Source of the DNA: Arthrobacter sp. UKPF54-2
GTDB taxonomy: Bacteria > Actinomycetota > Actinomycetes > Actinomycetales > Micrococcaceae
Direction: 5' to 3'
Length of the DNA stretch: 64,000 bases
Assembly: GCF_007858535.1 (NCBI RefSeq)
Contig: NZ_CP040174.1
Coordinates: 372,001-436,000, forward strand
Of this stretch, positions 24,148-43,863 are shown one piece after another (within the stretch, counting starts at the first letter, position 1; each line of letters starts with the position of its first letter). Made by a program: the position numbers and the translations under genes. A model generated the notes under the pieces. The model did no database searches. It was not told where the DNA came from and was given only the letters and a program-made list of their open reading frames with translations.

Positions 24148-25757
24148 GCCCTGCTGTGGCCGAGGAAACCGTCCTGACGCCGGCCGCCTGGTGGGAATCC
24201 GCGGTGATCTACCAGGTCTATCCGCGCTCGTTCGCGGACGGCGACGGCGACGGCGTAGGCGACCTCGCCGGGCTGACCGCGCGGCTGCCGTACATCGCCG
24301 CGCTCGGCGTCGACGGGATCTGGATGACCCCATTCCAGCCCTCCCCGCAGGTGGATCAGGGCTACGACGTGAGCGACTACTGCGGCGTGGACCCGTTGTT
24401 CGGCACCATGGAACAGTTTGATGCTTTGCTGGAACTGGCTCATTCGCTGGGCCTGCGGGTCCTGCTCGACGTCGTCCCGAACCACTGTTCCTCGGAGCAC
24501 CCGCTGTTCCAGGCTGCTTTGGCGGCGGGGCCGGGGTCACCCGAACGGGAGATGTTCCACTTCGTCCACGGTCCCGGGGGTGACACTCCCCCGAACAACT
24601 GGCAGAGCGTGTTCGGCGGCCGCGCCTGGAGCCGCTCGAATCCGTCGTCCGAGACAGATCTCGACTGGTACCTGCACCTCTTCTCCGCCGGGCAGCCGGA
24701 CTGGAACTGGCGCAATCCCGCCGTCGGCGACTACTTCGACGGCGTGCTGCGCTTCTGGTTCGACAAAGGCGTGGACGGCCTCCGGATCGACGTCGCGCAT
24801 GCCCTGTTCAAGGCCGAGGGTCTGCCGGATTCGCCTTACGAGGGCGGGGTGGTGGACGGGCTGCGGTCCAACCCACAGGTCTCCGACCAGGAGGAAGTCC
24901 ACGAGGTCTACCGCCGGTGGCGCACCCTCGCGGAGCAGTATGAGCCGCACCGCCTGCTGGTGGGCGAGGTGAACCTGGAACCGGCCCGCGCCGCCCGCTA
25001 CACCCGCCGGGACGAGATGCAGCAGGCCTTCGCGTTCGCGTTCGTCAAGCTCGGCTGGGACCCGGAGGCCTGGGCCGCCGTCGGGAACGAGCTCGAAGCC
25101 GCGCGGCAGCTGCACGGGGCGACGCCGACCTGGGCGCTGGAAAACCACGACATTGTCCGGTCCGTGACGCGCTTTGGCGGCGGCGAGCTTGGCACGCTGC
25201 GCGCCCGCGCCGCGCTGGTGGCGCTGCTGGGGCTGCCCGGCCCTGCGTACCTCTACCAGGGCCAGGAACTCGGGCTGCCCGAGGCGGACGTGCCGCTGGC
25301 GGCCCGGGTGGACCCCATGTGGGCCCGCGGCGGAGTCTGCCGCGACGGCGCCCGGATCCCGCTGCCCTGGACCGAGGACCCGGCCTTGAGCCACGGCTTT
25401 TCCCTGACGGAGGCAAACGGCGAGCCGTGGCTGCCGGTCCCTGCAGGCTGGGGCGGCCACGCCGTCGAGCTGCAGGAGCAGGATCCCGGGTCTTCGCTGG
25501 CGCTGGTCAGGGCTGCGTTGGATCTGCGTCGGAAGCTGTGGGGCGACGGGGTCTTCACCGCGGACGACGGCGGCATCTGGCGTGTGGAGGATGGGGGCCT
25601 GCTGGTCTGCGAACGGAGCGAGAACTTCCTGGTCGCCGTCGCAATGGGCACCGATCCTGTGAAGCTGCCGCCCGGAACGGTACTGCTCAGCGCCGCGCCG
25701 CTGGCGGAAGACGGCTGGCTGCAGCCGAACAACGCCGCGTGGGTTCTGCGAGGATGA
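24144..25757 (+). CDS. GH13-family alpha-glucosidase
   Basis: The product is 537 aa from a GTG overlapping the permease stop; a second GTG at 24156 is also possible. The GH13 barrel starts at AVIYQVYPRSFADGDGDGVGDL. Conserved regions follow: DVVPNHCS, GLRIDVAH with the nucleophile Asp near 216, LLVGEVNL with the acid/base Glu near 275, and ENHDIVRS with the third acidic residue near 335. The enzyme would cut imported alpha-glucosides in the cytoplasm. From 25125 to the stop the gene is duplicated at 43231-43863, so its 3' part may be a recombinant. Confidence 0.92.
   Translation: MSPAVAEETVLTPAAWWESAVIYQVYPRSFADGDGDGVGDLAGLTARLPYIAALGVDGIWMTPFQPSPQVDQGYDVSDYCGVDPLFGTMEQFDALLELAHSLGLRVLLDVVPNHCSSEHPLFQAALAAGPGSPEREMFHFVHGPGGDTPPNNWQSVFGGRAWSRSNPSSETDLDWYLHLFSAGQPDWNWRNPAVGDYFDGVLRFWFDKGVDGLRIDVAHALFKAEGLPDSPYEGGVVDGLRSNPQVSDQEEVHEVYRRWRTLAEQYEPHRLLVGEVNLEPARAARYTRRDEMQQAFAFAFVKLGWDPEAWAAVGNELEAARQLHGATPTWALENHDIVRSVTRFGGGELGTLRARAALVALLGLPGPAYLYQGQELGLPEADVPLAARVDPMWARGGVCRDGARIPLPWTEDPALSHGFSLTEANGEPWLPVPAGWGGHAVELQEQDPGSSLALVRAALDLRRKLWGDGVFTADDGGIWRVEDGGLLVCERSENFLVAVAMGTDPVKLPPGTVLLSAAPLAEDGWLQPNNAAWVLRG
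25125..25757 (+). repeat. Left copy of 633-bp repeat flanking the Ter island
   Basis: Codons 328-537 of the GH13 gene align without a single gap to 43231-43863, with a constant offset of 18106 bp through the stop codon. By hand I count about 37 differences in about 206 residues, roughly 82% identity. The two copies bracket 17.5 kb that carries the Ter genes. Confidence 0.85.
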
Positions 25758-25852
25758 CCACGACTGCACTGATTCGGATGCGTCGGTGCCGCGGGGCTTC
25801 GCAGAGCGAATCCGGACAGCCGACGGACCTGGGGACGTCCGGCGCGATCTAG

Positions 25853-27157
25853 TTACGCTTGCATCCTGATTCTGGAGGTCCACGCCGAACCGTCCCAATA
25901 GCGGAAGGGCGCAAGTTCCTGCGGGTCCGGATAGAACCCGGGCTGCAGACCTCCGGCATCGGTTCGAGCAGGCGCTGGCCCGTCGATAGCGGGCGGAGCG
26001 TCGTCATCAATAGAGAGGTCAATGACGGCCGCCTGCAAGGCAGGTTTCGCTGCCCGTTGGGCTGCAAGCCGGTCCCGCTCGGCGGCCTTCTCTGCGCGGA
26101 CTCTTTCCGCTTCAGCCCGCCTCTCCTCCTTGACGCGCTCAGCCTGTTCCCGCTTCAGCTCTGCTGCACGTTCTTTCTGTTGCGCGGCCTGGCGGACGGC
26201 GTCGGCTTTAGCTTGCTCAGTCTCATGTTGACGGCGCTGAATCCTGGTCATTGCTTCTCGGATTCCCGCGACACTCGAATCCTCGGCCAGAATTTTTTCC
26301 AAGTCCGCCGTCGCGCGGCCGAAGGCCCCTTCGGCCAGACTAATCTCAGAACGGAGGGCCAACGCCTGGAACCGCAGACCGTTCCCAAACTTCTTGCTCG
26401 CCGTCAGTGACTTAATGCATTCCTTGGCGGCTACAAGTTCGCCAAGTGCTAGATGCGACTTGGCACGGAAGATGGCGAGCATTGCCGTGATCTCAGAATC
26501 GACTACCATGCCGTCCGTGAGTCGAAGCACTTCATGCCAGTCATTGAGTTCGACGTAGAGGTCAGCAAGACTTAGCAACGCGGGATAGCTCGGATCCAGG
26601 CCCTCAACGTAATACACAGCCGTTTGGGTCTGTCCCTGGATCTGCAAACCCTCGGCGAGCGCCAAGGTCGCAGAGTCATCGGACAGGGGCAGTTCCACCG
26701 AGACGCCCCCGGCAATCCCCAGGGTCAGCCGATAACCGGAGAGATACTTCTGAGTGAAGGTATGGGACTCCACTAGGCCGTCGAGAGCGAGGGCCGCCCG
26801 GAGGCACTCAACAGCGAGGTCAGTCTGTCCGTGGATCAGGTGGCGCAGCCCCAAGAGAGTCGTTGCAAGCTTGGCGTACTGCGGATGGGCAAGTACGGCC
26901 TCATCAGCACCCACGGCGTCCGGCTGGGAGATGAATGCGAAAAGGGCCTTTTCCTCCTTGGGTGCAAAAAGGCCCGGGCGAACCGGCGCTGGTGCCGGAG
27001 CTGCAGCCGGCGGTCTTGCGGAGGTGGGCCGCGACTTGGCCGGAGATTTTCGTGAAGTAACCTTGCGGCCGCCCACGTAGGTGCTTACTCCGTTGGTGGA
27101 AACCCGGACGCGCACACCGGGCATCACCTTGAACGACGTGCTTTTTCTGAATCCCAC
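25853..27157 (-). CDS. DUF4236 - TPR-like - DUF2510 protein
   Basis: The product is 434 aa with three parts. Residues 1-35 (MGFRKSTSFKVMPGVRVRVSTNGVSTYVGG) are a DUF4236 motif. A helical TPR-like region follows (about 75-300, with DLAVECLRAALALDGLVES and LADLYVELNDWHEVL), and then a charged Arg/Glu/Ala-rich coiled coil (about 300-365). The last 35 residues (PGFYPDPQELAPFRYWDGSAWT) form a DUF2510 motif. The GTG start overlaps the stop of the TerD-GIY-YIG gene by one base (TAGTG), so the two are co-translated. DUF2510 is often on actinobacterial membrane-associated proteins, but no membrane segment is present here. A scaffold role within the Ter locus is a guess. Confidence 0.78.
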   Translation of the reverse strand: MGFRKSTSFKVMPGVRVRVSTNGVSTYVGGRKVTSRKSPAKSRPTSARPPAAAPAPAPVRPGLFAPKEEKALFAFISQPDAVGADEAVLAHPQYAKLATTLLGLRHLIHGQTDLAVECLRAALALDGLVESHTFTQKYLSGYRLTLGIAGGVSVELPLSDDSATLALAEGLQIQGQTQTAVYYVEGLDPSYPALLSLADLYVELNDWHEVLRLTDGMVVDSEITAMLAIFRAKSHLALGELVAAKECIKSLTASKKFGNGLRFQALALRSEISLAEGAFGRATADLEKILAEDSSVAGIREAMTRIQRRQHETEQAKADAVRQAAQQKERAAELKREQAERVKEERRAEAERVRAEKAAERDRLAAQRAAKPALQAAVIDLSIDDDAPPAIDGPAPARTDAGGLQPGFYPDPQELAPFRYWDGSAWTSRIRMQA

Positions 27158-28854
27158 TATTCCCCCTTGGACATGGACATACTCCGCCGAAACTCTGAGG
27201 CGTCAGCTTCTTCCCTAAATTCGAGTGTTGTTGCACCAACGATTCTTCGAACCGCTTCCCGGACCTCGTGAGGGGTGGCGTAGAAAAACTCCCGGCGAAG
27301 GTTGACCCGATTGACACGACGGTCTTCGAATTCCCGGTGCAATTGCGCCTCCAAACCCGCGGCGTCATCACTGAAGAATAGAACATGGACGTCGTAGAGG
27401 AACGGCACACCTGCTCCACTCAGCTCGCGGATTCGCTCTGTCGGTTCGAGACGGCGCGTCATTCCAATCTTCACAATCTGGTCGCCGAAGGCCCCGAGAT
27501 TCGAAATGACGTAGACGTAACCGGCCCTGGCGTTGGCCTCCCGGTTTTCGATGTCGCGAAGGTTGAGTTCGGCTTGGTCGAGCCGCGACTGCATGGTTTC
27601 AATGGCGGAGGCATCTCCACTGTTAATCGCGATCTGGAGTGCCGCCTGGTACTGATCGCGTTCCTTCTGGAACTTCTCGCGGGCCTTCCGCAGTTCGCGC
27701 TCGACCTTTTCTTGCTCACGGAGTTCCTCGCGGAGTGTCCTTTGTGCTTCCCGCTCCTCTGAAACCTTCAGATGGTAGTCCGCGGTAAGTCGAATTTCAG
27801 CAAGGCGGAGCTCGTGATACCCGTCCGTGATCTGGATGGCCATGCTGCGACCCAGCTTCTGAATCGATTCTTTCGCCCGTGTCAACCGCGAGATCGTCGG
27901 CTCAAGGTTGTGGCTGCGGACCGTTCGGATACAGTTGTCGGCTTCGGCGTTGTACGCGCGCAACATCAACCGACACTGCTCACGCACCATTCGGGCGCCG
28001 TCCTGCAAGCTGCCGTTTACGGCCCAGTTTGCGGCTCCGGTCACGCCGCGTTCTTTCGCCGTTTCCTTCACCTCCGCGCGGAGGAGATCCAGGCGATCTT
28101 TATATTTGATCGCGTTGTCCAGCGGGTGTGCGAACTCGTAAAGTCCGAGTTCCTGAAGGAGCTTGATCTCGCGGGTCTCTACAATCGCGGATTCGAGGTC
28201 CCTTAGCACTGCCTCTTTTTCCCGGATCCGGTGTTCCAGGTCGTGTAGATCTTCGAGGCGGTGCGTGTTAGCCGTGGGCATGGCTGACACGGAAGCTGGC
28301 TGAGGCTCCCCGCCCAAAGTCACTCCATGCTCGCCAAGGAAGGACTCCAGACCGCCCGTCCACCCCTGCGACACGCTGCGGATCTTCCATCCGCCGTCTC
28401 GGCGGTAGATTTCGCCCATAACGGCAACATTCTCATCGAGAAGTCCTGAAGCCGGAACCTCGAAGGAAACCCCGGAAGGTGATCTGACAAGCAAACGCAG
28501 GTCCGTGAGACGGCCTAGAACCTCGTCCGTGGAATCAAGACTGGCCGCGATTGAGATGCGGTGAACATCTTCAGGAAGTTGAGACAGAAAAATGGTGGCA
28601 GAGTGTTCCTGGATACCCACCGGAACAGAATTTCCGTCGAGATATTCGACAGCACCCCCGAGATATCTCGGCTGATTGTAGAAGACGACGGCCTCATTGG
28701 AAGCGACCTGCCCGACTTCGTCGACCATGATCAGGAAAAGGTCCACGTCGCAACTTGTCGCGGACGACTTCCAGCTGAGGTCGACTGACAATTTTTCGCC
28801 AGGACGTGTCGACAGCATCGAGTTTCCACCCTTGGACAGGATTGAGTGCGGCAT
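27157..28854 (-). CDS. TerD domain - coiled coil - GIY-YIG (T5orf172-like) fusion protein
   Basis: The frame opens at 29007, but I choose ATG 28854 because MPHSILSKGGNSMLS then matches a TerD N-terminus. The product is 565 aa. Residues 1-190 are TerD-like (KLSVDLSWKSS, VFYNQPRYLGG, GEIYRRDGGWKIRSVSQGW). Residues about 220-450 are a long coiled coil with a DUF4041-like region (TREIKLLQELGLYEFAHPLD). Residues about 455-545 are a GIY-YIG domain (GYVYVISNLGAFGDQIVKIGM, ...RIRELS, LEAQLHREF). It joins a Ter stress domain to a predicted DNA-cutting domain and probably supplies the nuclease arm of the Ter system (inference). The TerD part lacks the acidic DLDAS and GDN motifs of the other copies. 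Confidence 0.85.
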   Translation of the reverse strand: MPHSILSKGGNSMLSTRPGEKLSVDLSWKSSATSCDVDLFLIMVDEVGQVASNEAVVFYNQPRYLGGAVEYLDGNSVPVGIQEHSATIFLSQLPEDVHRISIAASLDSTDEVLGRLTDLRLLVRSPSGVSFEVPASGLLDENVAVMGEIYRRDGGWKIRSVSQGWTGGLESFLGEHGVTLGGEPQPASVSAMPTANTHRLEDLHDLEHRIREKEAVLRDLESAIVETREIKLLQELGLYEFAHPLDNAIKYKDRLDLLRAEVKETAKERGVTGAANWAVNGSLQDGARMVREQCRLMLRAYNAEADNCIRTVRSHNLEPTISRLTRAKESIQKLGRSMAIQITDGYHELRLAEIRLTADYHLKVSEEREAQRTLREELREQEKVERELRKAREKFQKERDQYQAALQIAINSGDASAIETMQSRLDQAELNLRDIENREANARAGYVYVISNLGAFGDQIVKIGMTRRLEPTERIRELSGAGVPFLYDVHVLFFSDDAAGLEAQLHREFEDRRVNRVNLRREFFYATPHEVREAVRRIVGATTLEFREEADASEFRRSMSMSKGE

Positions 28855-29128
28855 CCAAAGACCATACAACAGCAGATAGATATCACTGATGAAGATCTCC
28901 AAACGGCACCGCCGAGCCTTAGCGACATCGATTCCCCCATGAGAATCAGACGGCGTGGGGCGCAATGTCCGATCTTTCGTCTTCACGAGGAATTCGCATG
29001 TGGTCAATGCCCTCTGAAGCCAATCTGCGCCGCTAGGCCCTGCTAAACGCCGGACAGGAGCGGCCTCCCTATATGTAAGAGGGAAGGGCGACGCCCTCTG
29101 GTTGCACAGCGGCTGAGCGGTTAGGCAC
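28855..29128. other. Upstream region of the TerD-GIY-YIG gene
   Basis: About 270 bp hold no gene I can support apart from the unlikely N-terminal extension of the TerD-GIY-YIG frame. It should contain that gene's own promoter, because a hairpin terminator precedes it on the minus strand. I see no convincing -35/-10 pair. Confidence 0.35.
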
Positions 29129-29211: not shown

Positions 29212-30009
29212 TTACTGGATGAGGTTCTTGCTGCGGGCTTCTTTGAGCCAGTCCGGGAACTCCGTCAGCATCTTCTTGAACAGGTCCGCGTCGCTGATGG
29301 CGTCGACATCGCCAACGGGCTCATAGTTGGCGTTGTCCACGAACCGGTCCGTGAGCGTATCCAGCTTCTCCAGAAAGAGCATCGATTGCCTGCCGATGGA
29401 AAGGAACTTCCAGAAGATGGGCGCAGTCGACACTTCGGTCAAAGCACGGACCGCCTTCGACTGGTTGTCCGGCGCGCCATCGGTCAAGAACAACACGTAC
29501 ACAGGGATGTCTGCGGGCAGAGTCGACGGCTTAGCGGCCGGGACAGTTGGCGTGGGCTGCGCCTTGCCAAGGCCGAAGAACCCCCTCCTCTGCGGTGCGG
29601 CCGGAGTGGCGCCTCCTGCCGGAGCGAACCCGAAATGCTTTCGGATCGTCAGGAACGCGTCAGCGTAATTCGTGCCGCCCATGCTCCGGCCTTTGGTCAG
29701 GCGGTCTACGGACCCGGCAAAGTCATCAATGCTGATCTCGCCCAAATATGCCGCCGTGGAATCGAAGACGAAGAAATCGATGGCTCCGTCGTCATCGAAC
29801 TGGGTTGCCAGTGCCAGCGCCTTTTCGACCAGGCGCTGCATAGCCCCCGAACGGTAGACCCTGCTCATGGAACCTGAGAAGTCCAGTGCCAAGGCGACCT
29901 TGGCCTTCTGCCCATTTAGCCCGGAGTGATCGACGGCCTGCGAAGCGGTCTTGGCCAGTGAAAGCAGGCCCGGGGCCTGTTCGCCGATCTTGTCGAGGGA
30001 AAGTGCCAT
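29212..30009 (-). CDS. VWA-domain protein of the Ter locus (TerF-like)
   Basis: I choose ATG 30009, which has AAAGGA at good spacing; the frame extends to 30093. The product is 265 aa. After a short N-terminal helix (MALSLDKIGEQAPGLLSLAK) a von Willebrand A fold begins near 40. It carries the metal-adhesion motif ALDFSGSMS (DxSxS), a GGTNYADAF threonine loop and YVLFLTDGAPDN with the third metal ligand. VWA proteins of the Ter group (TerF/TerY types) are thought to be metal-dependent interaction modules. It lies between the TerD-GIY-YIG gene and the divergent DUF475 operon, which supports that role. Confidence 0.85.
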   Translation of the reverse strand: MALSLDKIGEQAPGLLSLAKTASQAVDHSGLNGQKAKVALALDFSGSMSRVYRSGAMQRLVEKALALATQFDDDGAIDFFVFDSTAAYLGEISIDDFAGSVDRLTKGRSMGGTNYADAFLTIRKHFGFAPAGGATPAAPQRRGFFGLGKAQPTPTVPAAKPSTLPADIPVYVLFLTDGAPDNQSKAVRALTEVSTAPIFWKFLSIGRQSMLFLEKLDTLTDRFVDNANYEPVGDVDAISDADLFKKMLTEFPDWLKEARSKNLIQ

Positions 30010-30140
30010 GTTTTGAGTCCTTTTCGATGAGTTTCTGTGATTCTTGCCTGCGTTGGGGGATGCGTACCTGCGGCATGCGCGGCCTTCCCGCATCTCCTCG
30101 CGGTACTGCTGACCGGGACTGCCGTTAGCGGAATGTGGTC

Positions 30141-30805: not shown

Positions 30806-31912
30806 GTGTTCCTCAAGACATTCGGGTGGTCGTTTGCGGTCACCGCCATCGCGTTGGTGGTCGCATTTCTTTACGGCGGACCCCAAGCACTGATCCTTTG
30901 CCTCATCCTGGGCATCCTTGAAATCAGCCTCAGCTTCGACAATGCCGTGGTCAATGCTCGAATCCTCGAGCGGATGAACCCGTTCTGGCAGAAGATGTTC
31001 CTCAGCGTGGGCATCATCATCGCCGTCTTCGGGATGCGCATCCTCTTCCCTCTTCTGATTGTGGGAGTCACCGCCAACCTGAACCCAATCGAAGCCGTGA
31101 GCCTGGCAATGGAGAAGGGCGACCCGCACACCCCGGGCAGCTACGGATACCTGCTGCACGAAGCCCACCCGCAGATTGCGGCGTTCGGTGGGATGTTCCT
31201 GCTGATGCTGTTCCTGGACTTCATCTTGGCTCACCGCGACATTAAATGGATCAAGTTCCTCGAGATCCCACTCGCCCGTTTGGGCAAACTCGAAGGTGCA
31301 TCGTTGATCATCGGAATGGCTGCCCTGGCCATCGCGGGGGCTGTTGCTGGTGAGAAGCAGGGCATCGTCCTGCTGTCAGGCCTACTCGGCATGATTACGT
31401 ACTTCCTCGTGAACGGCCTCGGGAATCTCTTCGACGTCGACGAAGACGGCGACGTCGACGCAGCGGACGCCGATCTTGTCGTTCACTCGGGCCCCTCCGG
31501 TGCCGCTCAGGTGGCGGGCAAGGCTGCCCTCATGCTCTTCCTGTACCTGGAGGTCATCGATGCCTCCTTCTCCTTCGACGGTGTCATCGGGGCCTTCGCC
31601 ATCACCTCCGACCCCATCATCATCGCCCTCGGACTCGGGTTCATCGGCGCCATGTTCGTGCGCTCCCTGACGGTGTTCTTGGTCCGCCAGGGCACGCTCG
31701 ACGAGTTCGAATACCTGGACCACGGCGCACACTGGGCCATCGGCGCGCTGGCCGTCATCCTGCTGGTCACGATCGTGGTCCCCGTCAACGAAATCATCAC
31801 GGGCCTCATCGGCGTCGTCTTTATCGGTGCCGCGTTTATCGGCTCGGTGCGTCGCAACAAGAGGGCTCTTGTCGCCGAGCAGACGCAATCCCTTGAGCCT
31901 GCTAACAACTAA
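30806..31912 (+). CDS. DUF475/TerC-like integral membrane protein
   Basis: The product is 368 aa from a GTG. About nine membrane segments are visible. Two matching acidic membrane motifs, EISLSFDNAVVNA near 37-49 and EVIDASFSFDGVIGAFA near 248-264, form the inverted-repeat signature of the TerC/DUF475 superfamily, thought to handle metal ions. A soluble acidic loop with DVDEDGDVDAADAD near 211-224 looks like a possible calcium site. It begins the plus-strand Ter operon and probably provides the membrane complex with which TerD proteins associate (family knowledge). Confidence 0.88.
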   Translation: MFLKTFGWSFAVTAIALVVAFLYGGPQALILCLILGILEISLSFDNAVVNARILERMNPFWQKMFLSVGIIIAVFGMRILFPLLIVGVTANLNPIEAVSLAMEKGDPHTPGSYGYLLHEAHPQIAAFGGMFLLMLFLDFILAHRDIKWIKFLEIPLARLGKLEGASLIIGMAALAIAGAVAGEKQGIVLLSGLLGMITYFLVNGLGNLFDVDEDGDVDAADADLVVHSGPSGAAQVAGKAALMLFLYLEVIDASFSFDGVIGAFAITSDPIIIALGLGFIGAMFVRSLTVFLVRQGTLDEFEYLDHGAHWAIGALAVILLVTIVVPVNEIITGLIGVVFIGAAFIGSVRRNKRALVAEQTQSLEPANN

Positions 31913-31969
31913 GTCCCGGGCGCCACAGACGCCAAGTACACAGACACCACTAGGAAAGCGAGTAATTCA

Positions 31970-32560
31970 ATGGGTTTGAGTTTGCAAAAGGGCCAGTCTC
32001 TGTCATTGACGAAACAGAACGGCGATTCGATGACGAACGTCCGTCTGGGCCTCGGCTGGGACTCCGCGGTTCCCGCAAAAAAGGGCTTCTTCGGCGGCAC
32101 CAAGACAGTGGAGATCGACCTGGACGCGTCGGCCATCCTGTTTGACGCCCAGGGCCAGCACCTCGACACGGTGTTCTTCAACCAGCTCACCAGCAAAGAC
32201 GGTTCCATCCGACACACCGGAGACAACCTGACAGGCGAAGGCGAGGGCGACGACGAAACCCTCATGGTTGACCTGCCGAACGTGTCACCGGCCGTCGCGC
32301 ACATCGTATTCGTCATCACCAGCTACAGCCAGCAGACGTTCGACATGGTCCAGAACGCGTTTTGCCGCGTGATCGATGACTCCGTGGCAGGCAGCCCGGA
32401 AGTCGCCCGCTACGACCTCACCGAATCGGGACGGTACACGGCAATGGTCATGTCCAAGCTTTCGCGAAACGGGAACATCTGGAACTTCCAGGCCATCGGC
32501 GCGCCGGCCCATGGACGAACACCCGGCGATGTCCGCGGCGCCGCTGCCGCGGCCCTTTAG
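31970..32560 (+). CDS. TerD-family protein (first copy)
   Basis: The product is 196 aa. It begins MGLSLQKGQSLSLTK and has VRLGLGWDS, EIDLDASAILF, FFNQLTSKDGSI and GDNLTGEGEGDDE, the acidic motifs that bind calcium in TerD proteins. An insertion near 30-40 (AVPAKKGFFGGTK) and a Gly/Ala-rich tail set it apart from the next two copies and make it more TerZ-like. It acts in the cytoplasm or at the membrane face in tellurite and general stress responses (family knowledge). It lies 57 bp after the DUF475 gene. Confidence 0.92.
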   Translation: MGLSLQKGQSLSLTKQNGDSMTNVRLGLGWDSAVPAKKGFFGGTKTVEIDLDASAILFDAQGQHLDTVFFNQLTSKDGSIRHTGDNLTGEGEGDDETLMVDLPNVSPAVAHIVFVITSYSQQTFDMVQNAFCRVIDDSVAGSPEVARYDLTESGRYTAMVMSKLSRNGNIWNFQAIGAPAHGRTPGDVRGAAAAAL

Positions 32561-32625
32561 CCTGATCGAAACAGCGCTCCTCAGCGCAACTCAACACACA
32601 CACACCGAATTTTAAGGAGTACCTC

Positions 32626-33207: not shown

Positions 33208-33274
33208 GTCCGAGTGGGCCCGGCGCCGCCGGCCCGCGGACCCCATTTAGCTCATTGATTAAGGAGAACAACCC

Positions 33275-35084: not shown

Positions 35085-35118
35085 TGGCCGCCTGTCCTAA
35101 GCAATAGGCTTACGGGCT

Positions 35119-35637: not shown

Positions 35638-36188
35638 TGGCTTCAATGGTTGCGGGCAGCAACGCCGCCCTCACAGCTGAGAACCCTGGGCTGGAAAAAG
35701 TACTACTGGGGATCGGCTGGGACGTTATCCCGAGCCGTGGTCCGCAAGCCGAGCTAGTGCCCATGGTGATCATGTGCGGCAAGGATGGCCGTGCCCTTTC
35801 GGATGACCACCTCGTCTTTTTCAACCAGATCGCAAGCCCCGATGGCAGTATTTCCTTCGCCGGGTCCGAGGACCAGGAACAGATCGACGTCGACCTGAAC
35901 CGCGTGCCGGAGTCCGTAAGTAAGATCGCGGTCCTGCTCTACGTAGATCCGGATGTGCGGGGGCCCGGCACCTTCGCGCCCGTCAAAAACGCGTATCTGC
36001 GGGTCGCGACCGACTCTAACCGGGAGCTTCTTCGTTTCACGGTGCCCCGGGGGAACCTCGACAAGATCAACGCCATGATCCTGGGTGAGCTCTACCGCCA
36101 CGCGGGAGGCTGGAAGTTCCGTGCCCTCGGCCAGGGTTATGAGAATGGGCTCGCAGCCGTCGCCGCCGACTTCAAGTTGAAACTCTAA
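35637..36188 (+). CDS. Divergent TerD-family protein with degenerate calcium site
   Basis: The product is 183 aa from a GTG overlapping the previous stop; the ATG at 35646 is an alternative. The fold is TerD (LLGIGWDVIPS, VFFNQIASPDGSI, GELYRHAGGWKFRALGQGY). However, the DLDASA motif is replaced by LVPMVIMC, and the GDNxTGEGxGDDE loop is shortened to GSEDQEQ. Calcium binding is therefore probably weakened or lost. It may act as a structural or regulatory partner of the canonical copies. Confidence 0.85.
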   Translation: MASMVAGSNAALTAENPGLEKVLLGIGWDVIPSRGPQAELVPMVIMCGKDGRALSDDHLVFFNQIASPDGSISFAGSEDQEQIDVDLNRVPESVSKIAVLLYVDPDVRGPGTFAPVKNAYLRVATDSNRELLRFTVPRGNLDKINAMILGELYRHAGGWKFRALGQGYENGLAAVAADFKLKL

Positions 36189-36190
36189 CT

Positions 36191-37015
36191 ATGGCCGTGA
36201 TCAGAACGGCCGTGCGGACCGACATCGGATACCTTAGCCGGCGCCGGAAAACCGTGACGGAGCCCGGGCCCACGCAACCGACTGTGCGGAGCATTGTCCC
36301 CTCTGCCGCCCCCCGTCCAATCCCATCCACCGGACTGACGCTCGGCGCTGGCCCCTCCACAGCCCCGTCCAGCGGACCCACGGTCGTCCCGGGCATGGTA
36401 TCGGCCGCCGGGCTGACACTCGCCGACCCGGCGGCCGCACGGCCGGGCACCACCGACGTGGCCGCAACAACCCGCCCCCGGCCTGCCCCGACTGCGTCGG
36501 AACGGCTGTTCCCGGCACCCGGCTTCGGCAGCCTCCGCGAACTGGACGCAGAGAGTCCGGTTGTTCGGCTCAACCCGCGCCAGTCCGCGATCGGCTCACT
36601 TTTAGTTGCGGGGGTTCGTTCCGCAGCCTGGGAGGATGAACAGTTATCCGCTGGCGCGCAACAGTCGGACGGGCTGACGGCCGGGACCGTCGTCCTTACT
36701 CCCGGAAACCGGCCTCTTGTCGGGGTCCAGGACGGCGCCGGCATCGTTTCCCTGCGACACGTCCGGCTACTGCGCCGCGCGCTGTTCGTCGCCGGGGAGA
36801 TGCCGCTGACGGTCGGAGTTAATGACGGCGCGGCTGCCGCCGTCGCCGCGCGCAGCGAAACGGGCTTGCGGAGCGTTCTGTATGTCGCGAGGATTGGCTC
36901 GGTCCTCGAGCTCCGCGCCGAGTTCGTGCCCGCGGATGGCCTGGACGCAGCCATCTGGGCTATGTTCGGCTTCACCATGACCACTCCACTGGACCAACGG
37001 GTCCTCCTGCGCTGA
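36191..37015 (+). CDS. Uncharacterised Pro/Thr-rich Ter-operon protein
   Basis: The product is 274 aa. The first 110 or so residues are low-complexity and rich in Pro, Thr, Ala and Gly. A compact C-terminal domain (about 120-274) includes FRELDAESPVV-like GSLRELDAESPVVRL, GTVVLTPGNRPLVGVQDG and SVLYVARIGSVLELRAEFVP. The Trp- and Gly-containing C-terminal strands faintly resemble TerD, but I would not assign it. It starts 3 bp after the TerD-like gene and is followed by the CitE-like gene, so it belongs to the operon. Confidence 0.65.
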   Translation: MAVIRTAVRTDIGYLSRRRKTVTEPGPTQPTVRSIVPSAAPRPIPSTGLTLGAGPSTAPSSGPTVVPGMVSAAGLTLADPAAARPGTTDVAATTRPRPAPTASERLFPAPGFGSLRELDAESPVVRLNPRQSAIGSLLVAGVRSAAWEDEQLSAGAQQSDGLTAGTVVLTPGNRPLVGVQDGAGIVSLRHVRLLRRALFVAGEMPLTVGVNDGAAAAVAARSETGLRSVLYVARIGSVLELRAEFVPADGLDAAIWAMFGFTMTTPLDQRVLLR

Positions 37016-37050
37016 TCCGCAAGCGCATACTTGCAAACCACCGGGGGACA

Positions 37051-38232
37051 ATGCAGCACTTCCAAGCCCTTGCCGAATCCGTTAAGGATCGGCTCTTCCA
37101 CAAGCGCCCTGAACACCTTCACCGCACCTCAAAACCCGGTCTTCTGGCCGTCGCGCTTGGGGCCACCCTCTACTCGCCGGCCACGAGAAGCTCCCTGGCG
37201 CACGGAATCCGGAAGCAGGCCGCGGCGGGCTGCCTCAGCGTTGTCATCTGCCTCGAGGACGCCGTCCCCGACGGGGAGGTGCCCGCCGCCGAGGAGAACC
37301 TGCTCGCCGCCTTGACCGACTTGGCTCTGGACGAACCGGATGAGCTCCCGCTGATCTTCATCCGCTGCCGCACTGCCGAACAGTTGCTCGACATTGGCCG
37401 GCGGGCCGGCGCCGCCCTCAGGGTGGTCTACGGTTTCGTCTTGCCCAAGTTTGAGAACGAGACAGGACGCGGACGCACTTTTCTGAAGGCACTGCAGCTG
37501 TTGAATGAAGAAGCCGGACGCACCGGGGCGCCGCAGGAGCAGGCCCTGATGGCCATGCCGATCATCGAGGACCTGTCCACTACCCACTTGGAGTCACGCG
37601 TCCGGGTACTGACGGACAATCTCGCCTTGGTCGAAGAGTTCCGCGATCTGGTGCTCTGTGTCCGAATCGGTGCGACCGACATGTCCAGTGCCTTTGGTCT
37701 GCGGCGTTCCCGCGACCTAACCATCTACAACGTGAAGGTCGTGGCTAACATCATTGGAGATGTCGTCAACATCTTCGGCCGCCCGAATGACGGCTGGGTC
37801 ATCTCCGGCCCAGTCTGGGAACATTTCGTCAACACTGAACGGGTTCTGCGGCCCCAACTGCGGTCTACGCCGTTCGAGGCCGTCAACGAGGGCGAGCTCC
37901 GTCAGCGCATCCTGATGGAAAACCTGGACGGCCTGATCCGCGAGATCGAGCTGGACCTGGCCAACGGGCTGCTGGGCAAGACGGTCATCCATCCCACCCA
38001 TGTCCCGGTGGTGCATGCCATGTGCGTGGTAAGTCACGAGGAATACCTTGACGCCGTTGACATAGCTGGGGACGCACGGGGCGGGGTGAAGGCGTCGTCC
38101 TACGGAAACAAGATGAACGAGCTGAAGCCTCACCGCGCTTGGGCGGAGCGCACGCTGCTGCGGGCCCGGGCCTTCGGGGTTGCGAGACCCGGAGTCAACT
38201 TTGTCGAACTACTGGAAGCGAACATGCGGTGA
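37051..38232 (+). CDS. HpcH/HpaI aldolase/citrate-lyase (CitE)-like protein
   Basis: The product is 393 aa with GGGGGA before the ATG. It has the CitE-like barrel features: GCLSVVICLEDAVPDGE with an acidic metal ligand, LIFIRCR, FVLPKFEN and LCVRIGATDMSSAFG, then GKTVIHPTHVPVVHA near the C-terminus. The family cleaves or forms C-C bonds of acyl-CoA or keto-acid substrates. In Ter operons this member belongs to a conserved module with PRTase/TRSP and HAD proteins, thought to make a nucleoside-like metabolite (published inference). It overlaps the next gene by GTGA. Confidence 0.85.
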   Translation: MQHFQALAESVKDRLFHKRPEHLHRTSKPGLLAVALGATLYSPATRSSLAHGIRKQAAAGCLSVVICLEDAVPDGEVPAAEENLLAALTDLALDEPDELPLIFIRCRTAEQLLDIGRRAGAALRVVYGFVLPKFENETGRGRTFLKALQLLNEEAGRTGAPQEQALMAMPIIEDLSTTHLESRVRVLTDNLALVEEFRDLVLCVRIGATDMSSAFGLRRSRDLTIYNVKVVANIIGDVVNIFGRPNDGWVISGPVWEHFVNTERVLRPQLRSTPFEAVNEGELRQRILMENLDGLIREIELDLANGLLGKTVIHPTHVPVVHAMCVVSHEEYLDAVDIAGDARGGVKASSYGNKMNELKPHRAWAERTLLRARAFGVARPGVNFVELLEANMR

Positions 38233-40841
38233 CGCAACTCTCCACGGATGCCTCTTGGAGCGGCAGCTACGTAACCGATGCGCTCGGCGTCGACGTGACC
38301 TCAGACCCAGGCACCGGCGTGCTGCCGGTCAAGGAACTGGTCGGATTGGCGCTGCGGCGCAATCCGAAGCGGGCCCACCTCCTGGTCTCGCGGGTTCTCG
38401 CCAAGCATGTCCCCACCGAACCCGGGGTCGTAACGTCAGCGGGCCGGTTGCTGGGACTCCTGGTGCAACGCGAACTCCAGCTCCCAGCCGAGACCGGATC
38501 GCTGACTGCCGTCATTGACGAGGCCGCCGACAGACTGGGTCGGCTGCTGGATCCTGCAGCACCGACGAACACCGGGGCTGTGCCCGACGGCGACGAACGG
38601 TCCCACCGGATGAGCGCCGTGACTGCCCTGGGCAATCTGCTCGCCGGACAGCAAGTGGAAAGTCCCGATGTCGTGACCATCGGCTACGCGGAAACTGCCA
38701 CCGCTCTGGGCCAGCTGGTGGCCGGACAACTGGGCACGTATTACATCCATTCCACCCGACAGGGAAGCTGCGGGGTTGAGCCTTACGGTGCCTTCGAGGA
38801 AGCCCACTCACACGCAACTTCCCATCAGTTGCTGCCAACCAGCCGCGCCGCCCTGAACCAGGCCGGGACCGTGGTCCTGGTGGATGACGAGCTCAGCACC
38901 GGCGCGACAATCATCAACACCATCCGCGAACTGCACGGCACCGCTCCGCACCGCCACTACATCGTGGCCTCCTTGGTGGACCTGCGCACTCCTGCAGACC
39001 GGGACCGCCTCGGTGAGCTGGCACGCGAGCTTGGCACCCGGGTCAGCGCCGTGGCGCTGGCACAGGGAAGCATCGAGTTGCCGGAGAATCTTGCAGCGGA
39101 CGCGGCGAAGCTGATCGGCACTCTTCCTCTCCCGCCCAAAACAGCCCCCGGCCCGGACCAGGTCCAAGTGCTGGACCTCAACGGCGTCGTGCCGCCAATC
39201 CGCAGCGCCCGCTTTGGCATTGCCGACCGGCCGGATCCGGAACAGGCCGCGCGCATCGCCGACCACCTTTCGGCAGCCCTCAGCAGCAGCCCCGGTGCCG
39301 GGCGCCGGGTGCTGGTCCTGGCCACGGAGGAATTTATGGCGCTGCCGTTGGCGGTGGCTACCAGGCTCCAGGAACTGCGCCCCCAAGCAGACATCCGCTA
39401 TTCCACCAGCACCCGCTCACCGATCGCCGCGCTGGATGAACCGGGCTACGCGATCCGTTCCGCCATTGCGTTTGACAGCGCCGGCGACTCGGCAGATGGT
39501 CCCGGGCCGCGGTTTGCTTACAATTTCACGCACCCAGAGGGACGCTTCGATACGGTGCTCCTCATGGCGGAACCCGGTGCCGCGGTTGCCGGGCTTTTGG
39601 GGCCCGGCAAGATTGCCGAGGCCGTTGCAGGGGCCGCCGACGATGTCCGGCTCGTCCTCGTGCCCGCCCAGCCACCATTCCCGACGCCGCTGCTCGGCCC
39701 TGCTTTTGGTTCCTATGGGACCGACGATGTGCAGTGGCTCGTGAAGGATCTGAGTTCTGCGCAGCTGGAAGCCCCGAAGGAAGAGCGGGAAGCCGCGATC
39801 CAGTCCGGCAAGGTCAGCTACGCCGAATCGTTGCCGCAAGAGTTCGAACCCTCTCCCGAATACAGCGCACTGTTCCAGTCCGCGCTGCAGAGCACGGCTG
39901 TCCGAATCGCGCACGCCGTCGGAACGCTCACCGAGCAGGTCCTCAAGCTGCGCGGCAATGCGCCCGTTCTGGTGTCTCTCGCCCGCGCCGGGACCCCCGT
40001 CGGCATCCTGATGAGGCGCTGGGCGTGGGAAGTCCACGGACTGGAGCTTCCGCACTATGCCATCAGCATCGTGCGCGGTCTCGGCATCGACCAGACTGCT
40101 CTCGGCTATCTCGCCTCCCGGCACCGTCCGGAGGACATCATGTTCGTGGACGGCTGGACCGGCAAGGGAGCGATCGCGCGCGAACTCGCCGCCGCCGTCG
40201 ACCTCTTCCGAAGGACCGATGGGCCTGCGTTCCGGCCGGACCTTGCCGTCCTCGCGGATCCCGGACACTGCGTCCGGATTTTCGGCACCCGCGACGACTA
40301 TCTTGTTCCTTCGGCATGCCTTAACTCGACCGTCTCCGGCCTAGTCTCACGCACCGTCTTCAACAAGGCGCTGATCGGGCCCGGGGATTTCCATGGGGCC
40401 AAGTTTTACTCGGAGCTCTCCGGCAGCGACGTCTCCAACGACTTCCTGGCCGCCGTCACGGCCCGGTTTGCCGAGGTCCGCGACGACGTCACGCAAGCCG
40501 CCGCCCACGCCCCGTCGGATATTTTGGCGTTGCCGGAAGCAGACTGGTCCGGATGGGCCGCCGTCGAAGACATCAGCCGCAGCTACGGCATCAACAACGT
40601 GAACTTGGTCAAACCGGGTGTCGGCGAGACCACCAGGGTCCTGCTCCGCCGCGTGCCGTGGAAGGTGCTGGTGCGCCCGGAGGCCGTGCCCGAGCTCGCC
40701 CACGTGCTGCACTTGGCCGAACAGCGCGGCGTTGAGGTGCTTGAAGTTCCTGGCCTGGCGTACAGCTGCGTCGGACTGATTCACCCTGTCCACACACCGG
40801 GAGCGACCGGCGCAGATGGCAAGGCTGTGGCCGACGTATGA
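38229..40841 (+). CDS. PRTase - TRSP - PRTase/PELOTA fusion protein of the Ter module
   Basis: I choose GTG 38229, which overlaps the CitE-like stop (GTGA), giving 870 aa; the frame is open further upstream. An N-terminal phosphoribosyltransferase-like domain has the PRPP loop VVLVDDELSTGAT near 215-227. A TRSP-like middle region follows (about 300-520). A second PRTase-like domain (about 560-730) has PVLVSLARAGTPVGILMRR and DIMFVDGWTGKGA, and the C-terminal 90 residues resemble a PELOTA RNA-binding domain. In other genomes these parts are often separate genes. It likely builds or transfers a ribose-phosphate compound in the Ter stress pathway (inference). Confidence 0.8.
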   Translation: MTQLSTDASWSGSYVTDALGVDVTSDPGTGVLPVKELVGLALRRNPKRAHLLVSRVLAKHVPTEPGVVTSAGRLLGLLVQRELQLPAETGSLTAVIDEAADRLGRLLDPAAPTNTGAVPDGDERSHRMSAVTALGNLLAGQQVESPDVVTIGYAETATALGQLVAGQLGTYYIHSTRQGSCGVEPYGAFEEAHSHATSHQLLPTSRAALNQAGTVVLVDDELSTGATIINTIRELHGTAPHRHYIVASLVDLRTPADRDRLGELARELGTRVSAVALAQGSIELPENLAADAAKLIGTLPLPPKTAPGPDQVQVLDLNGVVPPIRSARFGIADRPDPEQAARIADHLSAALSSSPGAGRRVLVLATEEFMALPLAVATRLQELRPQADIRYSTSTRSPIAALDEPGYAIRSAIAFDSAGDSADGPGPRFAYNFTHPEGRFDTVLLMAEPGAAVAGLLGPGKIAEAVAGAADDVRLVLVPAQPPFPTPLLGPAFGSYGTDDVQWLVKDLSSAQLEAPKEEREAAIQSGKVSYAESLPQEFEPSPEYSALFQSALQSTAVRIAHAVGTLTEQVLKLRGNAPVLVSLARAGTPVGILMRRWAWEVHGLELPHYAISIVRGLGIDQTALGYLASRHRPEDIMFVDGWTGKGAIARELAAAVDLFRRTDGPAFRPDLAVLADPGHCVRIFGTRDDYLVPSACLNSTVSGLVSRTVFNKALIGPGDFHGAKFYSELSGSDVSNDFLAAVTARFAEVRDDVTQAAAHAPSDILALPEADWSGWAAVEDISRSYGINNVNLVKPGVGETTRVLLRRVPWKVLVRPEAVPELAHVLHLAEQRGVEVLEVPGLAYSCVGLIHPVHTPGATGADGKAVADV

Positions 40842-41731
40842 GCGGTCGTTCAAGCGCCGCCCCTGTCATGGTGGCCAGCGACCTGGACCGTACCTTGATC
40901 TACTCGGCGAACTCGATGTCACTCGTAGGTAGTGACCATCTGGCGCCCCGCATGGTGGTCGCCGAAGTTTATGACGCAGCACCGCTCTCCTTCATGACCC
41001 GGGCTGCGGAAGGGCTGCTGGAGTGGGTCGCGGAGCAGAGCGTCTTCGTGCCCGTCACCACCCGCACCCAGGCCCAGTTCTCCCGTGTGCAACTACCAAG
41101 AGCAGGGCAGGGATACGCCGTGACCACCAACGGGGCCGTCCTACTGCACGATGGCGAACCGGATGCCGACTGGTCACGGCACATGCAACGGTCATTGGGA
41201 TCGGTTTGCGCGCCGCTGGACGTCGTGCTGGGCCATCTCACCGGCAGTGCGGCACACCCCGCAATTCTGAGGATCCGGACAGCCGAGGACTGCTTCATCT
41301 ATGGAATCGTCGACCGTGACGCGCTGACCGACGCTTATCTGGAAGAGCTCGGCGCTTGGTGCGATGCCCGCGGTTGGACAACGTCCTTGCAGGGGCGAAA
41401 GCTTTACTGCGTCCCGGTCCCTATTACCAAGGAAGCCGCCGTAGCTGAGGTCCGGCGGCGAACCGGCGCTGGACTGCTCGTTGCTGCCGGTGACTCCCGG
41501 CTGGATGCGGGCATCTTGGAGCTGGCGGACGTCGCCATCCGCCCGGCGCATGGCGAACTCGAAAGCGACGGATTCTCCCGGCCAAACCTGACCGTCACGT
41601 CGACGTCGGGCGTGCTGGCAGGCGAAGAGATAGCGCGGTTCTTTCGCGATATCCTGACGGGAACGGGAAATTCCACCAGTATTATTGCGAGCCGCGAAAC
41701 GTCACCGGCAATGCACACGCTGGGAAATTGA
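40838..41731 (+). CDS. HAD-family hydrolase of the Ter module
   Basis: The product is 297 aa, overlapping the previous stop by ATGA. The N-terminal MVASDLDRTLIYS carries the DxD nucleophile pair of HAD phosphatases, and VPVTTRTQAQFSRV is the motif II Thr region. GLLVAAGDSRLDAGILELADVAIRPAHGEL near the C-terminus is motif IV (GDSxxD), with the Cof-type layout of sugar-phosphate phosphatases. It probably dephosphorylates the product of the PRTase fusion. It is the last gene of the plus-strand Ter operon. Confidence 0.88.
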   Translation: MSGRSSAAPVMVASDLDRTLIYSANSMSLVGSDHLAPRMVVAEVYDAAPLSFMTRAAEGLLEWVAEQSVFVPVTTRTQAQFSRVQLPRAGQGYAVTTNGAVLLHDGEPDADWSRHMQRSLGSVCAPLDVVLGHLTGSAAHPAILRIRTAEDCFIYGIVDRDALTDAYLEELGAWCDARGWTTSLQGRKLYCVPVPITKEAAVAEVRRRTGAGLLVAAGDSRLDAGILELADVAIRPAHGELESDGFSRPNLTVTSTSGVLAGEEIARFFRDILTGTGNSTSIIASRETSPAMHTLGN

Positions 41732-41824
41732 GGCGTGACCGTATACTCCCTATGACGCCGAGAACCGTCATTGGTCTGGCCCCCAGCGAGGTCGCTGATG
41801 GGCCGAAATACATGGGGAACACAA

Positions 41825-43210
41825 ATGAAGAGCAACCGACGCCTGAATGGCAAGCCGGATTCGTACTACGCGATGAAGCCGCGGAACCCTAAAATCTCAA
41901 CATTCATTGTCGGAGCTCTGGCGTTGGGTGCCATCGCGCTAGGCGCGGGCAGCAGCGGAATCGGCGGCGCCATGGTCTTGCTCGCCATATTGGCTGCGAT
42001 TACGGGTCTTTACGTTTTGGTCACAGGCCGCCGCTCGTGGGCAAGGTTGCCAGGCGGCCGGAAAGTCGGAGGCATCGTGCTCGCTGGCGCACTGGTGCTG
42101 TTCATTGTCGGCGGAATTTCATTGCCTCCCCGATCGGCGGAAAGCATTGCCGCCCAGGCGGCGTCGGAGAACGCGAAGCGGGCAGCAGAAGAAGCATCCC
42201 GCGCCGCGGCCGCCCCCTCCGAGGCTCCCTCTGCCGTTCCTTCGCCGACCCCGTCGCCGGCAAACACCGGCAAACCACTTGACCCAGAGACGGTCACGGG
42301 ACTCGCCAAGGGCGTTAGTTATAAGGCGCCGAAGAGCCAACCCGCCTACGCAACGAAGGCAATCGATCTGCTCGGCCGGCTCTCGATTCAGGACACGGTT
42401 TCAGCGAGAGTCCAAGATGCCCCTGCTATGTTCGGTGCGGCCTGGGCAGACACTGATGGGAATGGTTGCGACACCCGGAACGACGTCCTCAAAAGAGACC
42501 TGTCGGACGTCGTCTTCACAGACGGAAAACACTGCAAGGTCGAACGCGGCACCCTTGCTGACCCTTATACGGCGACAACTATCCACTTTCAAAGGGGACC
42601 CGAAACCAGCAGCGCGGTTCAGATCGACCACGTAGTCGCGCTGGGCGACGCTTTGTTGAAAGGTGCCCAGAAACTCACAGAAGCGCAGCGCATAGCTTTT
42701 GCCAATGATCCTTTGAATCTTCGGGCCACGGACGGACCGACCAATATCCAAAAGGGCGAAAGCGACGCTGCGACATGGCTGCCACCGAACAAGAGCTACC
42801 GCTGCGAGTACGTCGCGCGCCAGATCTCCGTCAAAGCGACTTACGACCTCTGGGTGACGCGGGCCGAACACGATGCCATGGCTGGCGTCCTCGCAGATTG
42901 TGCAAGCCAACTCGTGCCGACGAATGAGAAGGAAACTGTAGTCGTCGCGGTGGCCGAGCCGAAAGAGGAGCAGTCTGCCGCCGCAGTAGTCGCCGTGCCT
43001 GAGCCCGCGGCGCCAGCGCCCTACGTTCCACCGGCACCGGTCTACGTTGCGCCCGCCCCTGCGCCTTACGTGCCGCCGGCGCCGGTTGCCACGTATTACG
43101 CCAGCTGCGCGGATGTGAAGAATGCTGGTGCGGCTCCGCTGTATGCCGGGCAGCCCGGCTACAGCTTCAAACTGGACCGCGATCGCGACGGCATCGCCTG
43201 CGAAAAGTAG
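41825..43210 (+). CDS. Membrane-anchored HNH (DUF1524-type) nuclease with excalibur domain
   Basis: I choose ATG 41825, after GGGGAA; the frame extends to 41771. The product is 461 aa. Two or three membrane segments occupy residues about 20-95, followed by an Ala/Ser/Pro-rich linker. The nuclease domain (about 170-340) has QIDHVVALGDAL, DPLNLRATDGPTNIQKG and ESDAATWLPP, the DUF1524/HNH signature. A Pro/Val-rich spacer with APYVPPAP repeats leads to the excalibur calcium motif DRDRDGIACE. It probably acts outside the cell on DNA. It is the last intact gene before the right copy of the GH13 repeat. Confidence 0.85.
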   Translation: MKSNRRLNGKPDSYYAMKPRNPKISTFIVGALALGAIALGAGSSGIGGAMVLLAILAAITGLYVLVTGRRSWARLPGGRKVGGIVLAGALVLFIVGGISLPPRSAESIAAQAASENAKRAAEEASRAAAAPSEAPSAVPSPTPSPANTGKPLDPETVTGLAKGVSYKAPKSQPAYATKAIDLLGRLSIQDTVSARVQDAPAMFGAAWADTDGNGCDTRNDVLKRDLSDVVFTDGKHCKVERGTLADPYTATTIHFQRGPETSSAVQIDHVVALGDALLKGAQKLTEAQRIAFANDPLNLRATDGPTNIQKGESDAATWLPPNKSYRCEYVARQISVKATYDLWVTRAEHDAMAGVLADCASQLVPTNEKETVVVAVAEPKEEQSAAAVVAVPEPAAPAPYVPPAPVYVAPAPAPYVPPAPVATYYASCADVKNAGAAPLYAGQPGYSFKLDRDRDGIACEK

Positions 43211-43230
43211 CTCCCCTCGCGGACTGACTG

Positions 43231-43863
43231 CCGACGTGGGCGTTGGAGAACCACGACATTGTCCGGTCGGCGACGCGCTTTGGCGGCGGGGAGCTTGGCG
43301 CCATGCGGGCACGGGCCGCGCTGGTGGCGCTGCTGGGGCTGCCCGGCCCGGCGTACCTCTACCAGGGCCAGGAGCTCGGGCTGCCCGAAGTCGATGTCCC
43401 GCTCGAGTCCCGGGTGGATCCCATGTGGGCCCGCGGCGGCGTCTGCCGCGACGGCGCCCGGATCCCGCTGCCGTGGACTGCGGATGCGGCGGCGGCCCAT
43501 GGGTTCTCGCTGACTGAAGAGGCGGCGCAGCCGTGGCTGCCGGTCCCCGTCGGCTGGGGCCAGCACGCCGTCGAACTCCAGGATCGAGACTCCGATTCGG
43601 TCCTGAACCTGACCAGGGCTGCCCTGGCGCTGCGCCGGACGCTGTGGAGCGACGGGGTCTTCACCGCGGACGACGGCGGCACCTGGCGGGTCGAGGACGG
43701 CGGCCTGCTGGTCTGCCAACGGAGCGAGAACTTCCTGGTCGCCGTCGCGATGGGGTCCGAGCCGGCCCGGCTCCCGGCGGGCACGGTGCTGCTCAGCGCC
43801 GAACCGCTCGCCGAGGACGGCTGGCTGCAGCCGAACAACGCCGCGTGGGTGCAGCAGGACTGA
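43231..43863 (+). pseudogene. GH13 alpha-glucosidase 3' fragment (right repeat copy)
   Basis: This is the C-terminal 210 codons of a GH13 glucosidase, beginning abruptly at Pro-Thr-Trp-Ala with an in-frame stop two codons before (43225). The barrel's nucleophile and acid/base residues are absent, so it cannot be active. It aligns without gaps to 25125-25757, at about 82% protein identity. It has no ribosome site: a TTG at 43243 is the only nearby start. I read it as the 3' end of the original or the incoming glucosidase allele, displaced when the Ter island arrived. Confidence 0.88.

Follow-up and report, generated by a model that had tools for sequence, protein, structure and literature searches.

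What leaves a second copy of a gene's end far downstream of that gene, beyond a block of unrelated cargo? The question is raised by a stretch of 64,000 nucleotides from Arthrobacter sp. UKPF54-2 (NCBI RefSeq assembly GCF_007858535.1, contig NZ_CP040174.1, positions 372,001 to 436,000 of the forward strand), termed the window below, in which the 3′ end of an alpha-glucosidase gene of family GH13 stands on both sides of an island of Ter genes. The repeat recurs in relatives, in uniform orientation and with divergence at the level of alleles, at loci where recombinase genes are lacking nearby. It was probably produced, in a reading held with moderate confidence, by integrase-free recombination between relatives, which would have made a partial diploid (merodiploid) of the operon that ends in the GH13 gene, followed by collapse of one copy to a 3′ scar.

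The block at 25125-25757 is repeated at 43231-43863 (offset 18106) without a gap across 633 bp, and the two copies are 17,473 bp apart. They are identical at 523 of 633 nucleotides, the 110 mismatches being distributed over codon positions 1, 2 and 3 as 20, 25 and 65, and the same residue is encoded in 174 of 211 codons, stop included (82.5%). Outside the block, similarity between the copies drops to background on both sides. A repeat finder reports the GH13 block as its two largest direct-repeat families in the window, and BLASTN of the left region against the right gives an E value of 0.0. The left copy closes a complete GH13 gene (PF00128, E 4.3e-97), the frame of which can begin at GTG 24144 to give 537 amino acids. 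Its protein contains the strings DVVPNH, GLRIDVAH, LVGEVN and LENHD, which are taken here to be the conserved regions of GH13. The right copy keeps LENHD, lacks the other three, and is preceded by an in-frame TGA (43225-43227). The original prediction, made from the sequence of the window, had described a colinear, gap-free recurrence at about 82% protein identity, a right copy that lacks the barrel active site and begins after a stop, and 17.5 kb of Ter genes in between; these descriptions all hold, and the Ter assignment is confirmed by Pfam. An assembly artefact is unlikely, since the source genome is a single 3.52-Mb contig and the pattern recurs in independent genomes.

This recurrence was found by searching 206 genomes of the genus (given below as G numbers) with the C-terminal part of the GH13 protein and scanning the resulting loci with a nucleotide profile of the gene. 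Among named records, those with the most similar GH13 protein belong to Arthrobacter and Pseudarthrobacter. The tree built from the 5′ part of the gene has 53 rows, namely an Arthrobacter-type clade of 30 that includes the window (support 96/75), a sister clade of 22 (100/94), and G349 outside both. The clade of 30 consists of 29 full-length genes, the window's among them, and the 5′ piece of the split gene of G129, a locus scored as remnant-free. Displaced GH13 pieces lie downstream of the full gene in 13 of these 30 loci (G031, G019, G014, G142, G178, G205, G098, G211, G204, G202, G094, G126 and the window) and in none of the 22 sister-clade loci (Fisher p 2.2e-4, uncorrected for relatedness of the loci). 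Because the lengths of the stretches differ between the clades (G194 has only 4.4 kb downstream), the comparison was also restricted to about 16 kb downstream, which leaves 10/30 against 0/22 (p 0.003). All 18 remnants counted are on the strand of the full gene, and 16 of them end within 25 nt of the gene's end; their starts are spread from model position ~440 to ~1555. More than one remnant is found in each of G031, G019, G204 and G098. That the locus is a hotspot which carries many such scars across a clade escaped the original prediction.

The count follows several rules. Adjoining pieces of one decayed copy were scored as one (G031, G098, G202), and a 63-nt match in G098 fell under the threshold of the final scan. 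Not counted were the G129 pieces, matches of 57-75 nt in the middle of the gene in G192 and G153, distant paralogues (model ~7-1160), and the remnants of G190, G140 and G115, where the full gene is absent from the fetched stretch. Profiles of the substrate-binding protein (SBP) gene, the two permease genes, the GGDEF-EAL gene and the gene at 48144-50042 revealed no series of 3′ remnants downstream that would compare with this one. Partial SBP matches occur at the start of the fetched stretches, with one distant exception, and partial genes for the second permease are followed directly by a GH13 gene or remnant; the remaining partial matches resemble distant paralogues.

The two copies in the window diverged under purifying selection. 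Their ratio of nonsynonymous to synonymous divergence (dN/dS) is 0.218, compared with a median of 0.195 (range 0.10-0.41) for intact orthologue pairs, and seven other long pairs of remnant and full gene give 0.10-0.26. Remnants are 82.7-91.7% identical to the full gene of their own genome, as genes of different species are. A dN/dS typical of selection implies that the alleles diverged in separate lineages and that truncation came late. Moreover, five of seven remnants do not pair with their own genome's full gene in a tree of the 3′ part. The hallmarks of sequential displacement, old 3′ ends lying downstream in the same orientation and stemming from other lineages, are therefore found together at this locus.

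Which copy was resident can be judged against G148, the closest relative found, which has one GH13 gene and no TerC homologue. In G148 the GH13 gene is followed by 4.4 kb of other genes and then by the window's right flank in the same order. Identity to G148 in the duplicated columns is 89.8% for the right copy and 84.8% for the left. Synonymous divergence (dS) from G148 is 0.243 for the 5′ part of the left gene and 0.255 for the right copy, compared with 0.443 for the left 3′ part (bootstrap interval of the difference between copies, 0.056-0.345); it is 0.10-0.14 for the upstream genes at 19652-24147 and 0.26 for the gene at 48144-50042. At sites that separate the copies, the right one agrees with G148 at 68 and the left at 35. 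Trees were built on columns 0-900 (5′) and 969-1599 (3′), a division that does not fall exactly at codons 327/328. In the 3′ tree the right copy and G148 form a pair (100/98) with the left copy as sister to both (100/99), and in the 5′ tree G148 pairs with the left gene (100/99). By these trees a donor of the left 3′ end would itself be a close relative; the nearest match to that end is still G148 at 84.8%. In G098, likewise, the remnant and not the full gene pairs with G202 (99/83), to which the 5′ tree also relates G098. The right copy is the more likely resident end, moved rightward, an assignment that rests mainly on synonymous divergence and is supported but not proven. The left gene is likely chimeric.

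These results change the earlier picture in part. The original prediction envisaged a foreign segment that brought its own allele of the gene end, and its claim that the alleles come from different lineages and not from a recent duplication within the strain is borne out by the dN/dS and by the grouping of the right copy with G148. So, as a likely outcome, is its suggestion that the active glucosidase may be a chimera. A correction concerns the polarity: the left 3′ end is the more distant one, and the right copy looks like the resident end. It also expected the GH13 gene to be followed directly by the gene at 44013 in relatives without Ter genes, which is not the arrangement in G148. The separate trees it proposed, run near the suggested split, gave the groupings above. 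Finally, it would have been refuted by relatives with the same Ter genes at this locus and no right copy. Taken literally, G015, G211 and G094 are such relatives: the Ter cluster occupies the same hotspot there with no GH13 remnant behind it, and in G211 and G094 a remnant stands ahead of it. They are not counted as decisive because those loci are arranged differently.

The interval downstream of the GH13 gene is variable and lies between conserved flanks. In the sister clade, at most two genes stand between GH13 and a homologue of the gene at 48144-50042 in 13 of 22 loci, and in the remaining 9 the interval is longer or different. In the window's clade it is filled with varying sets of recurring modules. 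Cluster gene order was taken from a home-made picker of open reading frames trained on this window, and of the 95 clusters common to at least two clade loci, 30 representatives were scanned with Pfam. The scanned representatives include an ion channel, GDPD, glyoxalase-like, SnoaL, AHSA1, histidine phosphatase, amino-acid permease, aminotransferase, AsnC regulator, thiamine pyrophosphate (TPP) enzyme, PhzF and LuxR-type proteins. Homologues of TerC/DUF475 are present in 17 of the 206 genomes, some of them away from this hotspot.

No tyrosine integrase lies within 100 kb of the locus on the same contig in any of the 22 genomes mapped, which include all 13 remnant carriers (the G019 and G014 contigs are shorter than 50 kb). 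Resolvase families occur within 50 kb in one of 23 genomes mapped, G129, where they lie inside its split GH13 gene. In the window's own genome, resolvases have no match and the three tyrosine recombinase matches are all distant from the locus; Pfam finds no recombinase family among the genes of the island. The locus is therefore a variable region between conserved flanks without mobility genes, with the G129 resolvase as the exception and with transposase families outside the search.

One four-gene module (clusters 20-21-26-13: amino-acid permease, aminotransferase, AsnC regulator and TPP enzyme) occurs on either side of the operon. In seven loci it stands to the left: of an intact operon in G153 and G142, of a remnant in G190, and, in G024, G159, G129 and G081, of a GH13 gene with an upstream truncation of its operon. 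In eight (G031, G178, G211, G098, G010, G205, G176, G080) it stands to the right of GH13, and the first four of these have a remnant behind it. In G031, G178 and G211 the same cargo, consisting of this module and a small gene, stands ahead of the remnant and ends nearly alike, and the remnant starts at different codons, which fits deletion into a formerly longer copy. Repeated segments also flank the operon or the module. G211 has a decayed copy of the module left of its operon and an intact one right of it (83% identical), in G142 the W19652 gene is present twice, once on each side of the module (89.5% identical), and in G205 a 1-kb segment on one side of the operon recurs on the other (87.8% identical). 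All three resemble tandem arrangements of operon plus module, composed of alleles of different lineages, in which one copy has collapsed. At loci other than the window's, the remnant thus resembles what is left of a second copy of the operon that came from a different lineage.

Table 1. Features of the window around the repeated GH13 gene end (positions are those of the window).
Feature	Position	Strand	Basis or remark
W19652 gene, substrate-binding-type gene (20794-22116) and permease-type genes (22169-23224, 23224-24147)	19652..24147	+	Working names, given without a family-library search
Complete GH13 gene (left copy)	24144..25757	+	PF00128; all four strings
3′ block of the left copy, likely the incoming allele	25125..25757	+	dS to G148 0.443 (right copy 0.255)
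DUF2510 protein with weak TPR matches, left edge of island	25853..27157	-	PF10708
TerD - DUF4041 - T5orf172/MUG113 fusion protein	27157..29007	-	Pfam
TerF-type vWA protein	29212..30093	-	PF10138, E 3.3e-54
Ter cluster	30806..41731	+	Pfam; also at this hotspot in G211, G094, G015
GmrSD_C - Excalibur protein, final cargo gene ahead of remnant	41771..43210	+	Pfam
Right copy, 5′-truncated GH13 3′ end, probably the displaced resident end	43231..43863	+	
Right flank: DUF7793, GGDEF-EAL, methyltransferase	44013..46814	+	Same order in G148
Conserved gene closing the hotspot (cluster 1)	48144..50042	-	

The substrate-binding-type gene and both permease-type genes are kept upstream of GH13 in most relatives. 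In G024, G159, G129, G094, G190 and G115 the best match to the first permease is just 48-52% identical; this part of the operon appears to have been lost in those six, with GH13 or most of it kept in four. The Ter cluster of the window (Table 1) encodes TerC/DUF475, four TerD proteins, TelA, a C-C bond lyase and a PRTase-TRSP-StiP-PELOTA protein, in addition to three genes without a Pfam match. The DUF2510 and TerD-DUF4041-T5orf172 gene pair at the left edge of the island also comes after a GH13 remnant in G031, and a homologue of the GmrSD_C-Excalibur protein at the right edge is found in G181 within about 0.5 kb of a GH13 end. The split gene of G129 (G129:C1:2213915-2228303; L105, L106) is interrupted by ~13.7 kb that hold two resolvase-family matches, and its GH13 pieces overlap by ~14 model positions. 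In another locus (L121, G118), dense direct repeats, several of them spaced near 80-150 bp, lie ~0.7-2.6 kb past the GH13 stop. Within the window, G+C content reaches 0.73-0.75 at 8001-10000, next to stretches of 0.66 and 0.64.

How could such a locus have come about? The hotspot lies downstream of a putative sugar-uptake operon, the last gene of which is GH13. DNA from a related strain that carried its own operon end and cargo, here the Ter genes, would enter by homologous recombination on the left, and the resident operon copy would end up to the right of the cargo. The merodiploid would then lose most of the redundant resident copy by deletion, and the resident 3′ end, beside the resident right flank, would persist as the 211-codon remnant. 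The right-hand join could be made through gene modules common to both strains or be illegitimate at one end. Strains with a module on opposite sides of the operon might recombine directly into tandem operon-plus-module structures, while one-sided homology with an illegitimate second join would apply where no module is common, as in the window. We infer the order of these events. Microhomology was sought by eye at the right junction of the window and set aside, as G094 and G181 offer no comparable sequence behind the GmrSD gene; no donor in which the cargo end runs on uninterrupted was found. The non-homologous join may have been shifted by later deletions. A ComEC-type gene is present in the window's genome, which permits DNA uptake but does not show it.

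The operon might also act as a landing strip of its own making, an idea that is possible though on balance doubtful. Modules on either side would let recombination between strains make tandem copies that flank the cargo, and collapse to a scar would remove the long repeat that could excise the cargo, thus fixing it. Cargo would then spread without an enzyme of its own, and stacked scars would record the order of arrival.

A number of observations weigh against recombination between relatives followed by collapse, or against the assignment of the copies. Approximately unbiased (AU) tests do not reject a grouping of the left copy with G148 (p 0.21) or with the right copy (p 0.19), nor do they on columns 969-1425 (p 0.32 and 0.31); for G098, a grouping of the full gene with G202 gives p 0.079. 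In the final ~150 nt the left copy is nearer to G148, at 15 sites compared with 9. Divergence between the left gene and G148 jumps at column 1218, but control pairs jump at similar places, and an attempt to locate a crossover in the left copy from divergence along the gene was dropped because these controls behave alike. The correlation of 5′ with 3′ distances is 0.63 in the remnant clade and 0.60 in the sister clade, and hence more frequent swapping of gene ends in the former is not shown. The flank genes at 44013-46814 have a dS of 0.46-0.65 to G148, which indicates an exchange history of their own. The window has no module common to both sides of its operon, and among 23 loci such left/right matches are found only in G010, G204, G205 and G211, plus the W19652 copies of G142. 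The G205 remnant falls outside the genes of its relatives, while its full gene falls among them. In addition, partial duplication is not confined to GH13, since 23 of 32 loci have other direct repeats of at least 60 nt (with GH13 masked), paralogues and tandem repeats included. Lastly, the remnants of G142 and G019 do pair with their own full gene (91/90 and 95/71).

Those two pairings, together with the failure of the AU test to reject left plus right in the window, are what would be expected had the operon and its cargo been doubled long ago in one lineage and the second copy decayed. This is nevertheless quite unlikely: the remnants are as distant from their own full genes as different species are, a truncated copy would have drifted freely and not kept the dN/dS of a functional gene, the best tree of the window joins the right copy with G148, and most of the remnants tested do not pair with the full gene of their genome. 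It is also unlikely, if slightly less so, that the whole block from the left GH13 3′ end to the right remnant was imported ready-made through crossovers in the flanks. Hotspots without mobile elements often do turn over by recombination at flanking core genes, according to PMC5635113. However, the dS of the right copy to G148 resembles that of the 5′ part and of the gene at 48144-50042, unlike that of the left 3′ end, and such an import merely shifts the origin of the remnant to the donor.

Two further explanations involve enzymes. An integrative element that used its own GH13 3′ end as attachment site could have inserted at the gene's end and restored the frame, and the fact that nearly all remnants reach the end of the gene is as expected at gene-end attachment sites. 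This was rejected as very improbable, given that in the mapped genomes no tyrosine integrase is found near the locus, and a resolvase in G129 only, and that Pfam finds no recombinase family in the island. Furthermore, the scattered remnant starts have no common core (one could have been removed by later deletion), and the remnant of G190 continues into the permease gene. A transposon-like insertion, with transposase families outside the search, is seen in G129 only, where it splits the GH13 gene and holds a resolvase. In intronless homing, the T5orf172 protein would cut island-free alleles, and repair would copy the island with the adjacent GH13 end. The T5orf172 domain, presumably of GIY-YIG type, matches its profile over positions 1-100 of 101 (60.4 bits), and the fusion protein is near a GH13 3′ end both in the window and in G031. 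Its cluster occurs in just two of the fetched loci and therefore cannot account for the hotspot, and no cutting site is known; homing is the most remote of the explanations considered. Recombination between relatives with later collapse of one operon copy thus remains the preferred reading.

Many bacterial hotspots lack mobility genes, and their gain of DNA is mostly inferred statistically. The events described here leave readable scars, each with an orientation and an allele of its own, which would allow the process to be dated and modelled one locus at a time. In elements such as the icd phages, the 3′ end of a protein gene is used as attachment site. As at the present locus, the gene end is duplicated and diverged and the frame is restored; unlike them, the locus has no common core and no integrase found near it, and its remnants are long and variable.

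Integrase-free hotspots of horizontal gene transfer have been attributed to recombination at flanking core genes (Oliveira 2017, PMC5635113). They have in common with the GH13 locus the conserved flanks, the turnover of modules and the lack of recognised mobility genes, but the double crossover proposed there would be scarless, whereas here a gene-end remnant marks the events. In pneumococcus, pairing at a repeated segment during transformation makes a tandem duplication, or merodiploid (Johnston 2013, PMC3784515). Such repeats could be provided by the segments that flank the operon in G211 and G205. The transformation merodiploids described there span ~100-900 kb and can come from the cell's own DNA, and one that was studied was unstable; at the GH13 locus the copies are diverged and one has collapsed.

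The closest likeness is with the immunity-gene arrays of type VI secretion systems (T6SS) and the orphan 3′ ends of Rhs and contact-dependent inhibition (CDI) loci. According to Kirchberger 2017 (PMC5361080), these arise by sequential C-terminal displacement, for which no integrase is known and homology-facilitated illegitimate recombination has been proposed. In these arrays, as here, incoming DNA takes its place downstream of a conserved anchor, the former 3′ part is displaced further along and retained, stacks form, and alleles within one genome derive from different strains. The differences are that GH13 is an enzyme without a toxin-immunity role or a polymorphic tip, that the cargo is large (17.5 kb) and unrelated, and that the displaced end has no evident use. 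No record of displacement at an ordinary metabolic gene was found in the open-access literature searched. The locus would be best read as the metabolic-gene counterpart of the Rhs/T6SS displacement arrays and, if this is true, it would extend a process known from toxin loci to an ordinary metabolic gene.

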